The notes under the pieces are model-generated. The model was not told where the DNA came from, made no database searches, and saw nothing but the letters and a program-made list of their open reading frames with translations. Positions 23,343 through 49,474 of a DNA stretch of 49,474 nt are shown piece after piece. The position numbers and the translations under genes are program-made. Source of the stretch: Hydrotalea sp. (GTDB lineage Bacteria; Bacteroidota; Bacteroidia; Chitinophagales; Chitinophagaceae); the NCBI GenBank assembly GCA_027364735.1, contig DAHXOT010000053.1:1-49474 (forward strand), written 5' to 3'. The stretch's first letter is position 1, and each line of letters opens with the position of its first letter.

Positions 23343-23415
23343 TGTTTTTGACAGGCGTTAAAAGAATGGCTTAAATAGTTTTAACTTGCCTGATGTTCGG
23401 TTAACTCTTCATTCT

Positions 23416-24216
23416 ATGGATACTACAACTCTCTCAATAAATAAATTAGGAAAACTAAAAGTGCTTATTGCAGAAGATAATGAAATAAGCAAACTAATTC
23501 TTACAAGCATGTTGCATCAATGGGGATTTGAAACCCAAATTGCCAGTAATGGATATGAGGTAATTGAATTGATGCATGCATTTTATTTTGATCTTGTTTT
23601 AATGGATATTCAAATGCCCTTAAAAGATGGGATTGAAGCTACTATAGAAATAAGAGCATTAGAAGATGAACAAAAAAAGAATGTACCTATTATTGCATTA
23701 ACAGCCAATGCGGTAAAAGGTGAAGAAAAAAAGTATTTTGAAGCTGGAATGAATGCCTATCATACAAAACCTTTTACCGAAAAAAATTTGTATGAATTAA
23801 TTGAATCTGTTTTATTGAATACAAATAGGAAACCAATAAACTTGGCCAAGAAAAATACTGTTGCACATTCTACTGAAAAAAAATATTCACTTAATTTGGT
23901 AAAAGAACTTACCGGTAACAATGAAATTCTAATAAAATCTGTAGTAGAAACTTTTATTACTACTGTTCCATTATTAAATAAGGAATTATACCAAAATGCT
24001 CTCGAAAAAAATTGGATACAGGCAGCCAAAATAGCTCATAACCTTAAATCGAATATTGATACATTTATTATAAAAGATATTCAGGCTGATATAAGAAATA
24101 TTGATACATGGGGTAAGCAAAACATACATATTGAAGCAATTTTTGCTCTGGTTGAAAAAGTTCATGCTACTCTTAATGAATGTATCATTCAATTAAAAGA
24201 AGAATTCAACTTATAA
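23416..24216 (+). CDS. Receiver-HPt two-component protein
   Basis: Phosphorelay protein without an output domain. The receiver domain (about residues 14-133) has the acidic pair E20/D21, phospho-acceptor D64 in LVLMDIQMP, T97 in ALTAN and K118 in HTKPF. The C-terminal HPt domain (about 165-262) has the phospho-histidine H208 in AKIAHNLKSN. The receiver resembles those fused to hybrid histidine kinases, so the gene may be a separated relay module. No kinase or DNA-binding gene is adjacent. ATG at 23416 is used; a TTG at 23386 would add ten residues. The 3' end overlaps the opposing hemJ by 6 bp. Confidence 0.88.
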   Translation: MDTTTLSINKLGKLKVLIAEDNEISKLILTSMLHQWGFETQIASNGYEVIELMHAFYFDLVLMDIQMPLKDGIEATIEIRALEDEQKKNVPIIALTANAVKGEEKKYFEAGMNAYHTKPFTEKNLYELIESVLLNTNRKPINLAKKNTVAHSTEKKYSLNLVKELTGNNEILIKSVVETFITTVPLLNKELYQNALEKNWIQAAKIAHNLKSNIDTFIIKDIQADIRNIDTWGKQNIHIEAIFALVEKVHATLNECIIQLKEEFNL

Positions 24217-46930: not shown

Positions 46931-47545
46931 ATGTCCTTTAAAAATACCATCAAAAACAATCCGCAACTAAAAAAAATTGTTCACCGTTTATTAATTCCTA
47001 AAAACGAAGCCAGACCAAGGTTATGGGTTAAATGGTTCATAAATCCATTTATTCATAAACGTGGAAAAAATGCTACCATTAGGCGTAATATTCGATTAGA
47101 TGTTTTGCCTTTTAACCAATTTTATTTGGGTAGTAATTCTACCATTGAAGATTTTAGTACAATTAATAATGGTGTAGGTGATGTTATTATTGGTCATCAT
47201 ACTTTAATTGGAATGGGGAACACTATTATTGGTCCAATTACAATTGGCAATAATGTAATTTTAGCCCAAAACATTGTTGCAAGTGCTTTAAATCATGAGT
47301 ATCGAAATATTAATTTGCCAATTCATGAACAAAAAATATTAACTGCACCTATTATAATTGAAGATGATTGCTGGATTGCTGCCAATGCTGTAATTACTTC
47401 GGGAGTTACCATTGGCAAACACAGTGTAATTGCAGCAGGTGCTGTTGTTACTAAAAACATTCCTCCCTATTCTGTAGCAGTTGGTAATCCGGCTAAAGTT
47501 ATTAAACAATATAGTTTTGAAATGAATGATTGGATAAGAGTATAA
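46931..47545 (+). CDS. Hexapeptide-repeat acyltransferase
   Basis: Left-handed beta-helix transferase of the WbbJ/maltose-acetyltransferase type, likely acetylating sugars of the polysaccharide. The 204-residue protein has hexapeptide repeats from about residue 60 on (DVIIGHHTLIGMGNTIIG, PITIGNNVILAQN, APIIIEDDCWIAANAVITSG, VTIGKHSVIAAGAVVTKNIP) and the closing PPYSVAVGNPAKVIKQY. The active-site histidine is probably in ALNHEYR near 122. It is on the plus strand, divergent from the TolC-like operon and convergent with the sugar transferase gene. Confidence 0.87.
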   Translation: MSFKNTIKNNPQLKKIVHRLLIPKNEARPRLWVKWFINPFIHKRGKNATIRRNIRLDVLPFNQFYLGSNSTIEDFSTINNGVGDVIIGHHTLIGMGNTIIGPITIGNNVILAQNIVASALNHEYRNINLPIHEQKILTAPIIIEDDCWIAANAVITSGVTIGKHSVIAAGAVVTKNIPPYSVAVGNPAKVIKQYSFEMNDWIRV

Positions 47546-47612: not shown

Positions 47613-48848
47613 CTATACATTTTCCTTCTGAAATAATGCAGGAATTGTTTTCAAGATAAGTTTGATATCGTTAATAAAACTATGATTTTGTGCATATACA
47701 TTATCCAACATCAATCTTTCTTCTTCACTCATTTCTCCTTTGCCACCACGTTTTTCAACTTGCCATAAACCTGTAATACCTGCAGGAGCTAAAAACCTAA
47801 GCGAATATTTATCGGTAGTTAATTTTTCAGCTTCATACAAAGGCAATGGCCTATTGCCAACAATACTCATATCGCCAATAATTACATTCCACAATTGAGG
47901 TAATTCATCTATACTGGTATTGCGAATAAATTTTCCAATTTTGGTTATACGCGGATCATCTTTGATTTTAAAAAATGCGGAGCCCGATTTAGTTTTCTTT
48001 ACATCCATATATGCTTTTTCGCACCACTGATTTTTATCGGCATATATAGGAAATTGGCAAGAAGTTCCTGCTGTTCTGCATGTTTCACACAAATAAACAT
48101 CTTCATCGGTACTGGCTGCTGCCGATTCACCAACAGTTTTAGTTGCGTTATTATATTGATTTAAATGTTTTAAATCTTTTAATCTTTTATCGGCATCTAC
48201 ATACATTGACCGGAATTTAAAAAATTTAAACACTCGATATCCCGTTCCTACGCGTAAGGAATAATAAAATACAGGTCCTTTTGATTCTAACCGTATTAAA
48301 ATATAAATCAATAAAAATATAGGCGATAGCATAAGCAAAGCAAGCCCTGCAAAAAAAATATCAAACACTCTTTTTATAAAAGGTGTTTTATAACGTGTAA
48401 ATCGTTTATGGCTATTTTTTTCGCTTATCTCTTTCCAATGGTCAATTAAAAAATTGGCTCGTATTTCTATGCTTTCTTTATTTAATGGTAAAATAAATAC
48501 CTCAGCAATACCTGCACGTAATGCCAGATTTTTATTATTATCATTAATATGCCGTGGAGGAATTATTAAAAAGAACGGAACATTGGGAAATTTCTTTTTT
48601 TGAAATGTTTCTAATAATGAAATTCCGGCAACAGATAAAATTTCGCTTTGAGAAAAAATAGCAACAATATTTAGTTTTTCTTTTTGCCATCTGTTGGCAA
48701 TTTCAAGCCCATTATTAAAACTAATTATTTGACGTTGATTAAAATTAATACTTGAAAAAAATTCTTTTACAGTATCATCGCACTGTATTAATGCAATAAT
48801 TTCGTTAGTATAATTGGTAGAGGTATTGTTAGTCATAGGATGTAGCAT
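47613..48848 (-). CDS. Initiating sugar transferase with pseudo-receiver domain
   Basis: Transfers the first sugar phosphate to undecaprenyl phosphate to start repeat-unit assembly. The 411-residue protein has three parts. Residues 15-140 look like a response-regulator receiver with lost acceptor site (IVAIFSQSEI where D is expected, ILPLNKE where KPF is expected). Then come one membrane helix near 161-187 and the bacterial sugar transferase domain: KFRSM (211-215), DDPRITKIG (297-305), DELPQLWNV (314-322) and GNRPLPLYE. An insert at about 216-292 carries C254, C257, C264 and C276 (CETCRTAGTSC), like a zinc site. A true receiver gene lies 4 bp upstream. Sugar specificity is unknown. Confidence 0.9.
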   Translation of the reverse strand: MLHPMTNNTSTNYTNEIIALIQCDDTVKEFFSSINFNQRQIISFNNGLEIANRWQKEKLNIVAIFSQSEILSVAGISLLETFQKKKFPNVPFFLIIPPRHINDNNKNLALRAGIAEVFILPLNKESIEIRANFLIDHWKEISEKNSHKRFTRYKTPFIKRVFDIFFAGLALLMLSPIFLLIYILIRLESKGPVFYYSLRVGTGYRVFKFFKFRSMYVDADKRLKDLKHLNQYNNATKTVGESAAASTDEDVYLCETCRTAGTSCQFPIYADKNQWCEKAYMDVKKTKSGSAFFKIKDDPRITKIGKFIRNTSIDELPQLWNVIIGDMSIVGNRPLPLYEAEKLTTDKYSLRFLAPAGITGLWQVEKRGGKGEMSEEERLMLDNVYAQNHSFINDIKLILKTIPALFQKENV

Positions 48849-48852
48849 TAAG

Positions 48853-49257
48853 TTAAGATTTACCGGCTCGCCTTAAAATAACTTTAATTCTCGATTCAAG
48901 TTCTCTTGGATTAAATGGTTTTACTACATAATCATCTGCACCGGCATTCAAACATTTAATACGCATTTCGGAACTTTCTTCTCCCGATAGAATCATTATG
49001 GGTACTAAATTAAAAAAGTCGCTCGCTTTAATTTGAGTAATTAGCTCTAATCCATTTAGCTGAGGAACATTTAAATCTGAAATAATTAAATCGGGAATTT
49101 TGCCACTTTGCAAATACGATAATGCATCCATTCCATTGGTAGCTGTTTCTACATCAAACATGGGCGATAAGTATTCGTTCAAAATGGTTTGCATGTAAAT
49201 ATCATCTTCCACAATAAGGATTTGGGCTTTACCGGAATTAGGATTCTTTGAAGTCAT
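48853..49257 (-). CDS. Single-domain response regulator
   Basis: A 134-residue receiver with no output domain. It has the acidic pair ED in LIVEDDIYMQT, phospho-acceptor D61 in LIISDLNVPQLNG, S91 in MILSGEES and K113 in YVVKPFNPRE, so it should be phosphorylated. It is co-oriented with, and 4 bp upstream of, the sugar transferase that carries an inactive receiver-like domain, which suggests that phosphorylation of this protein controls the start of polysaccharide synthesis by contact with that domain. No kinase gene is in the window. Confidence 0.92.
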   Translation of the reverse strand: MTSKNPNSGKAQILIVEDDIYMQTILNEYLSPMFDVETATNGMDALSYLQSGKIPDLIISDLNVPQLNGLELITQIKASDFFNLVPIMILSGEESSEMRIKCLNAGADDYVVKPFNPRELESRIKVILRRAGKS

Positions 49258-49474
49258 AAGGATATTATTTGGATAAAGGTTATATCATCTAAGATACAGA
49301 AAATATATATTACACTATAATTAATTTTTGCTTCTTAGAAGCTGTTTGAGTTAAATTAGAAAAAAGTTGTAAAGTTTTTGATGAATAGACAAAAGAAGGA
49401 AATCGGTCGTTAAAGAGTTAATGACAAAAAAAACAAATTTTCAACCGACTTCCAGTGGCAAATTTTAGAAAGTT
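49258..49474. other. Gene-free end of window
   Basis: This 217-bp AT-rich stretch upstream of the receiver gene has no supported gene. It contains the short palindrome GCTTC-TTA-GAAGC (49330-49342). A promoter for the receiver-sugar transferase operon is expected here, but no exact TAnnTTTG box was found close to the start. Confidence 0.5.

Follow-up and report, generated by a model that had tools for sequence, protein, structure and literature searches.

Control of polysaccharide synthesis can act on the enzyme that commits the first sugar to it, and a work on Myxococcus asks how cells time the use of their limited lipid carrier and sugar donor for any one polysaccharide (PMC12802240). The locus studied here, at the end of a 49,474-nucleotide contig of Hydrotalea sp. 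(Chitinophagaceae; DAHXOT010000053.1 of assembly GCA_027364735.1; the whole contig is hereafter the window), poses this question in a specific form: does a phosphorylated receiver protein switch an initiating sugar transferase by binding to a degenerate receiver at the transferase's own N-terminus? A first-pass annotation of the window had proposed such a switch from two neighboring genes. The reading that we favor, to which we assign a probability of about 0.7, is a dedicated phosphorelay running from a kinase to the receiver and on to the pseudo-receiver-transferase, which would control polysaccharide initiation post-translationally.

A receiver gene and a transferase with a degenerate receiver

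The first of the two genes encodes one receiver domain without an output domain, as in single-domain response regulators, and its phosphorylation residues E17, D18, D61, S91, and K113 are all intact, as the first-pass annotation had read them. The second is the sugar transferase gene that had been reported 4 bp away (Table 1). This transferase matches PF02397 and has no transmembrane bundle N-terminal of its catalytic domain, as in small phosphoglycosyl transferases (PGTs) of the PglC type, and PglC was the first-ranked Foldseek match of its predicted structure (8g1n, E 8.3e-12). The residues ahead of the PF02397 match form a receiver-like domain, hereafter the N-domain. Since the downstream neighbor, a hexapeptide-repeat transferase gene (46931-47545), lies on the + strand, the receiver and the transferase form a two-gene unit. 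The unit sits at the edge of a polysaccharide cluster whose members include a 724-aa protein of Wzc-like appearance with an AAA/CbiA-type domain, an outer-membrane efflux-type protein, glycosyltransferases, an O-antigen-ligase/Wzy-like protein, and an FkbM methyltransferase, together with additional glycosyltransferase-like open reading frames (ORFs) recognized by eye.

Table 1. Coordinates of the features discussed, on the numbering of the window
Feature	Position	Strand	Evidence
Single-domain response regulator (receiver), 134 aa	48853-49257	-	ORF; PF00072, E 1.9e-27; phosphorylation residues
Small monotopic PGT with N-terminal pseudo-receiver, 411 aa	47613-48848	-	ORF; PF02397, E 4.4e-59
PGT catalytic domain, residues 159-406, SIDELPQ motif	47631-48374	-	PF02397; alignment
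Gap of 4 bases, receiver stop codon to transferase start codon	48849-48852	-	Sequence
Predicted pseudo-receiver, residues about 16-140, Gln67 at the acceptor site, Leu120 at the lysine site	48429-48803	-	hhalign; AlphaFold; residue columns
Four-cysteine insert, about residues 232-290, C254, C257, C264, C276	47979-48155	-	Alignment
Part of a multi-copy repeat, probably IS-like, at the contig end upstream of the receiver	49338-49474	.	Repeat copies; IS nature inferred

The N-domain was the least certain element of the original proposal, which had described it as resembling a receiver devoid of the acceptor aspartate and the conserved lysine. The first 161 residues of the transferase gave no Pfam match at E up to 10 in a search run with the HMMER filters on, which drop most weak matches. 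Alignment of profiles by hhalign, with 29 N-domains on one side and 28 neighboring receivers on the other, returned a probability of 98.4% and an E value of 8.7e-15 over 126 columns; a profile of 99 N-domains of the same class matched one of 177 receivers at E 1.8e-20. A second class of N-domains is more distant, and 57 of these matched the receivers at E 1.9e-12. On these comparisons, a chance resemblance to a receiver was rejected. AlphaFold2, supplied with 30 homologues, predicted a (beta-alpha)5 arrangement at residues 17-148, with pLDDT values of 78-92 by block for residues 11-140, and Foldseek placed the receivers of PorX, FixJ-N, and CheY below PglC and WbaP among the matches to the transferase model. 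As a full-length model it has a pTM of 0.47 and is of low quality over the catalytic part and the cysteine insert. At the positions that correspond to E17, D18, D61, S91, and K113 of the receiver, the N-domain carries Gln, Cys, Gln, Ile, and Leu, so that the acidic pair is lost and all five phosphorylation positions are changed. By profile and predicted fold, the N-domain is receiver-derived and degenerate, departing from PF00072 in its residues and its Pfam score; the predicted fold does not bear out the objection that the N-terminal region might not be a receiver, and the description given in the first-pass annotation holds.

Many of the weak sequence matches to the N-domain outside its own family are proteins of about 520 aa, which are taken to be PorX from their length and the PDB match. 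PorX, which consists of an intact receiver and a PglZ-type phosphatase domain, shares with the window N-domain its occurrence in Bacteroidota and a weak match, but differs in its intact receiver and in its output domain.

The catalytic domain of the window transferase contains an insert whose four cysteines (C-x2-C-x6-C-x11-C) are invariant in 30 of 30 aligned close homologues. In five proteins of the more distant class (L037, L068, L069, L077, L122), 31-35 residues replace about 80 and carry no such cysteines. Our guess is that the insert forms a metal or redox site; since the model is poor here, no structure can be claimed for it.

Conservation of the pair across Bacteroidota

If the two genes function together, transferases that carry the N-domain should rarely lack a receiver neighbor. 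The transferase's own family was searched across 195 genomes, and loci were drawn from 88 of them, 30 through L001 and L009-L037 and 58 more through L068-L127. A receiver gene lies directly upstream in 32 of the first 33 loci examined, the remaining one (L034) being a receiver fused to the PGT, and in 59 of another 60 loci that belong to the more distant class, where the exception (L104) falls at a contig edge. Counted by genome, a separate receiver stands beside such a transferase in 87 of the 88 own-family genomes, and the other one is a contig end. Another 80 named loci were added, the best 80 of 549, together with 29 that came from a search of the phylum; at E 1e-60 this search had matches in 42 of 395 genomes.

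A pair was defined as a same-strand receiver ORF of <260 aa within -260 to +250 nt of the transferase, identical ORFs were dropped, ORFs of <170 aa were left out, and the counts rest on open frames rather than annotated starts. Under this definition, a receiver on the same strand stands directly upstream of 175 of the 180 distinct transferase ORFs that measure ≤460 aa and carry an N-terminal extension. The tally stood at 169/174, became 173/178 once four misbinned loci had been moved, and reached its final value with two more; the four (L032, L070, L073, L216; all paired) were moved by hand into the N-domain class because the catalytic profile began inside their N-domains. The N-domain of L068 contains masked letters.

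The five unpaired loci differ in kind. Two, L104 and L147, are at contig ends. L003 is a paralogue from the same genome as the window, and neither of the two profiles, receiver or N-domain, matched its extension; it was counted as an exception, and many extensions of the distant class likewise miss the N-domain profile. L034 (1501-2715, - strand) has no separate receiver gene beside it because an intact receiver is fused directly to its PGT. At L215, a histidine kinase lies directly upstream of the PGT, there is no free receiver, and the N-domain keeps the acceptor aspartate; the same place, read as L240 (6271-8435, - strand), shows a FIST-domain protein as well as the histidine kinase directly upstream of the PGT.

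Against these numbers, none of 11 long PGTs (>460 aa) is paired, and among PGTs without an N-terminal extension only 5 of 18 are (L223, L226, L227, L236, L308). The pairing is strongly conserved, far above chance. It occurs in other families of the phylum too and is directly testable, since the pair is present in isolates with names, from Pedobacter, Mucilaginibacter, Sediminibacterium, and Cyclobacterium. Mere syntenic relatedness was considered as a source of the pairing and rejected, as the neighboring genes vary and the long and most of the short PGTs are unpaired. The first-pass annotation had asked for co-conservation of the two genes, and these counts do not refute its proposal.

The same counts bear on the possibility that the two genes are simply co-transcribed in a polysaccharide locus, with the receiver regulating something else and the adjacency being historical. 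The position of both window genes at the edge of the cluster would suit this account. What speaks against it is the persistence of the pair in the own-family genomes and in other families, the turnover of the genes around it (in a clustering of the 80 named loci, the best 80 of 549, the transferase is present in all 80, the receiver in 77, and the next most common neighbor family in 43), the unpaired state of the long PGTs, and the natural fusion at L034. We regard mere co-transcription as very improbable.

Among Mucilaginibacter loci (L131, L139, L163, and others), recurrent genes downstream of the PGT resemble, by reading of their sequences, an anti-sigma kinase, an anti-anti-sigma (STAS) protein, and a receiver-bearing protein of 380 aa.

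From a candidate kinase to a docking model

Upstream of the receiver gene, 217 bases remain before the window ends, and the region beyond was read in a sister genome (G037), where the transferase is 97% identical and the receiver identical by eye. There, a divergent gene 215 bp from the receiver (L257, 1901-5854) encodes a 1317-aa hybrid kinase with the domain order PAS-HisKA-HATPase-REC-Hpt, a strong positional candidate for the kinase whose identification the first-pass annotation had called for. The window's genome has a 94% identical orthologue, located where a different contig (C45) ends, so that by synteny the kinase and the receiver would be adjacent there as well. Both contig ends (49338-49474 in the window; L290, 9040-9302) carry repeats with several near-identical copies elsewhere in the genome, and for this reason an IS-like element probably separates kinase from receiver here, in the divergent promoter region, unlike in G037. 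A protein within the window (23386-24216, + strand, 276 aa) was considered as the kinase and rejected, as it has a receiver domain but no Pfam kinase domain; its C-terminal part looks Hpt-like by eye (HNLKS), with no Pfam Hpt match.

Upstream sequence of 5 kb or more was available for 93 loci, which are partly non-independent because organisms overlap between the two samplings. Of these, 34 have a kinase less than 5 kb upstream of the receiver, 15 of them at 600 nt or closer, and the other 59 have no upstream kinase within 5 kb. The Hpt tail of the G037 kinase was matched by 30 of the 34. Downstream, a kinase occurs within 5 kb in 9 of 74 loci. With 22 HisKA matches in 2.77 Mb, the window's genome holds about one per 126 kb; at that density a few per cent of loci would be expected to have a kinase nearby, and 34/93 would lie above this figure, although other genomes may be richer in kinases. 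At L250-L252, a kinase, a receiver, and a PGT without a pseudo-receiver stand in a single same-strand run, which in L250 (5014-8278, - strand) comprises a hybrid kinase of the order HisKA-HATPase-REC-Hpt, the receiver, and the PGT.

The phosphorylation residues were compared across relatives. In 177 neighboring receivers, the acceptor aspartate is present in 172 and the lysine in 171 (167 in one alignment, with 4 gaps). In the 177 N-domains, the acceptor position holds Asp in 43, Glu in 39, and Gln in 54; the aspartate is kept in 12 of 104 N-domains of transferases with the cysteine insert vs 31 of 73 without it, acceptor aspartate and lysine occur together in 9 of 177, and the complete set of five residues is found only in the fused L034. 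Five Cyclobacterium N-domains (L192, L200-L203) keep the aspartate, the lysine, and a glutamate at the D18 position, missing only the Ser/Thr and one acidic residue despite the presence of a free receiver. The acceptor aspartate is absent from the neighboring receiver in L075, L076, L079, and L086 (Asn or Ser) and in L232 (Glu), so some pairs may have drifted. At L086 (G152) there is a possible swap of roles: Ser occupies the acceptor position of the free receiver, and it is the PGT's N-domain that retains Asp and Lys, though without the D18 acid and the Ser/Thr.

Retention of acceptor aspartates in a quarter or so of the N-domains, and the nearly intact ones of Cyclobacterium, would be understandable if the pseudo-receiver had an input of its own, binding or, in some species, being phosphorylated by the hybrid kinase or its Hpt domain, and if the free receiver were a phosphate sink or served another target. 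Kinases near the pair in 34 of 93 loci, 30 of them with an Hpt-like tail, and the PGT that directly adjoins a kinase at L215 would also fit. Yet the adjacency of the receiver is much tighter than that of the kinase (175/180 vs 15/93 within 600 nt), and none of the five phosphorylation residues survives in the window N-domain, which together make an independent input improbable.

Under the favored reading, the hybrid kinase would pass phosphate through its Hpt domain to the stand-alone receiver, and the phosphorylated receiver is predicted to dock on the N-domain of the transferase, receiver to pseudo-receiver. How the two might fit was modeled in relatives where the receiver and the N-domain lie in one frame with a single intervening stop, as they do in 35 loci. 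The pair of a close relative, L128, was folded as one chain with the stop read as Gln, on an alignment of 26 joined and 42 single-domain rows; 26 of the 35 in-frame loci entered the joined alignment, the nine others being more distant or having other stops. AlphaFold2 returned a pLDDT of 91.1 and a pTM of 0.80 for these 279 residues, the cognate receiver and N-domain alone. Since freely hinged domains of equal size would, by our estimate, score a pTM near 0.5, the placement appears to be predicted with some confidence, although the two are related receivers and covalent linkage may favor docking. Mean-field coupling over 173 receiver/N-domain pairs (Neff 140) gave top inter-protein scores above the mean of 12 shuffles; one shuffle came near the real value (1.289 vs 1.361), the inter-protein scores were scattered, and the shuffles break shared phylogeny.

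PleD, a protein in which a phospho-receiver and a degenerate receiver adaptor precede a GGDEF output, occupied the first ten ranks when the joined model was searched with Foldseek. Both receivers match, but their placement relative to each other differs from that in PleD (for the match at rank 1, TMq 0.42 and rmsd 14.8 A). Of the 50 VIA-align rows, nearly all are confined to the first receiver and so are uninformative on the second. The top ranks of PleD fit an active and a degenerate receiver acting jointly. In both systems an intact and a degenerate receiver would control an enzyme; in PleD, however, the domains share a single chain and the output is a cyclase.

Docking would alter the activity of the transferase, most likely turning it on, so that with the signal present the first sugar-phosphate would be loaded onto the lipid carrier. 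Activation is favored by analogy, because phosphorylated EpsW activates EpsZ in Myxococcus (PMC12802240). A receiver paired with an enzyme that bears a degenerate receiver probably forms a fast switch; the phosphotransfer, the sign of the effect, and its physiological consequence are what we infer.

A different route would have the receiver act through the catalytic domain or through another protein, leaving the pseudo-receiver as a module of its own, by which the transferase self-associates or is positioned at the membrane. The five paired PGTs without an N-domain are what such a route would produce, and they mean that a pseudo-receiver is not required for every such pairing; EpsZ, moreover, is regulated by EpsW, and the available text of PMC12802240 describes no pseudo-receiver in it. 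This route leaves the steep difference in pairing between transferases with and without the extension (175/180 vs 5/18) unaccounted for, as it does the joined model that places both domains and the single intact receiver that stands in place of the pair at L034, and we judge it unlikely. The switch proposed in the first-pass annotation, a phospho-receiver acting through the pseudo-receiver, is in this way borne out in part: the predicted fold, the pairing, the candidate kinase, and the EpsW-EpsZ precedent (PMC12802240) favor it, and the 5/18 pairs and the near-intact Cyclobacterium N-domains speak against an exclusive receiver-to-pseudo-receiver pairing.

Comparison with known systems

The closest described system is that of Myxococcus xanthus, in which phosphorylated EpsW, a single-domain receiver, stimulates the PGT EpsZ post-translationally (PMC12802240, mBio 2025). 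According to that source, EpsZ is a large monoPGT with a four-helix bundle and a DUF, its regulation is proposed to proceed via dimerization, and the phosphate of EpsW is supplied by the Dif chemosensory system. The likeness to the window pair is considerable, since in each a stand-alone intact receiver encoded at the locus is genetically tied to an initiating monoPGT, and the phosphate comes, or here would come, from a kinase system. The window PGT differs from EpsZ in being a small, PglC-type enzyme rather than a large monoPGT with a transmembrane bundle and a DUF lacking the beta-hairpin, in its N-terminal pseudo-receiver, and in the arrangement of the two genes as an adjacent pair; phosphate would probably come from a PAS hybrid kinase with an Hpt domain, whereas Myxococcus uses the Dif system. 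The same paper describes small PGTs as functional monomers, so the dimerization mechanism of EpsZ may not transfer to the window enzyme (PMC12802240). It also mentions receiver domains fused to small monoPGTs, from O'Toole, Imperiali, and Allen 2021, and these, as far as that mention goes, resemble the present case in joining a receiver domain to a small monoPGT.

As a class of mechanism, post-translational control of a monoPGT by a single-domain receiver is already published, in 2025, for a large monoPGT (PMC12802240). The string 'Bacteroid' is absent from the main text of that paper in a text search, and a literature search of open-licence papers, in which absence is weak evidence, found no report of receiver-PGT pairs from Bacteroidota. 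The form described here, a small PGT with a degenerate receiver, an adjacent intact receiver, and an Hpt hybrid kinase, seems to be unreported.

If the favored reading is true, the pair would bring the committing enzyme under direct phosphorelay control, of which no report from this phylum was found, and the intact pairs, the fused L034, the kinase-PGT arrangement at L215, and the PGTs without a pseudo-receiver provide natural test cases. A broader generalization is possible, though we hold it to be doubtful: the pair may constitute a split PleD-like switch, with the active receiver in trans and the degenerate one in cis, which turns on normally monomeric small PGTs by phosphorylation-dependent assembly, is widespread in Bacteroidota, is fed by dedicated Hpt hybrid kinases, and takes a second, metal or redox, input through the four-cysteine insert.
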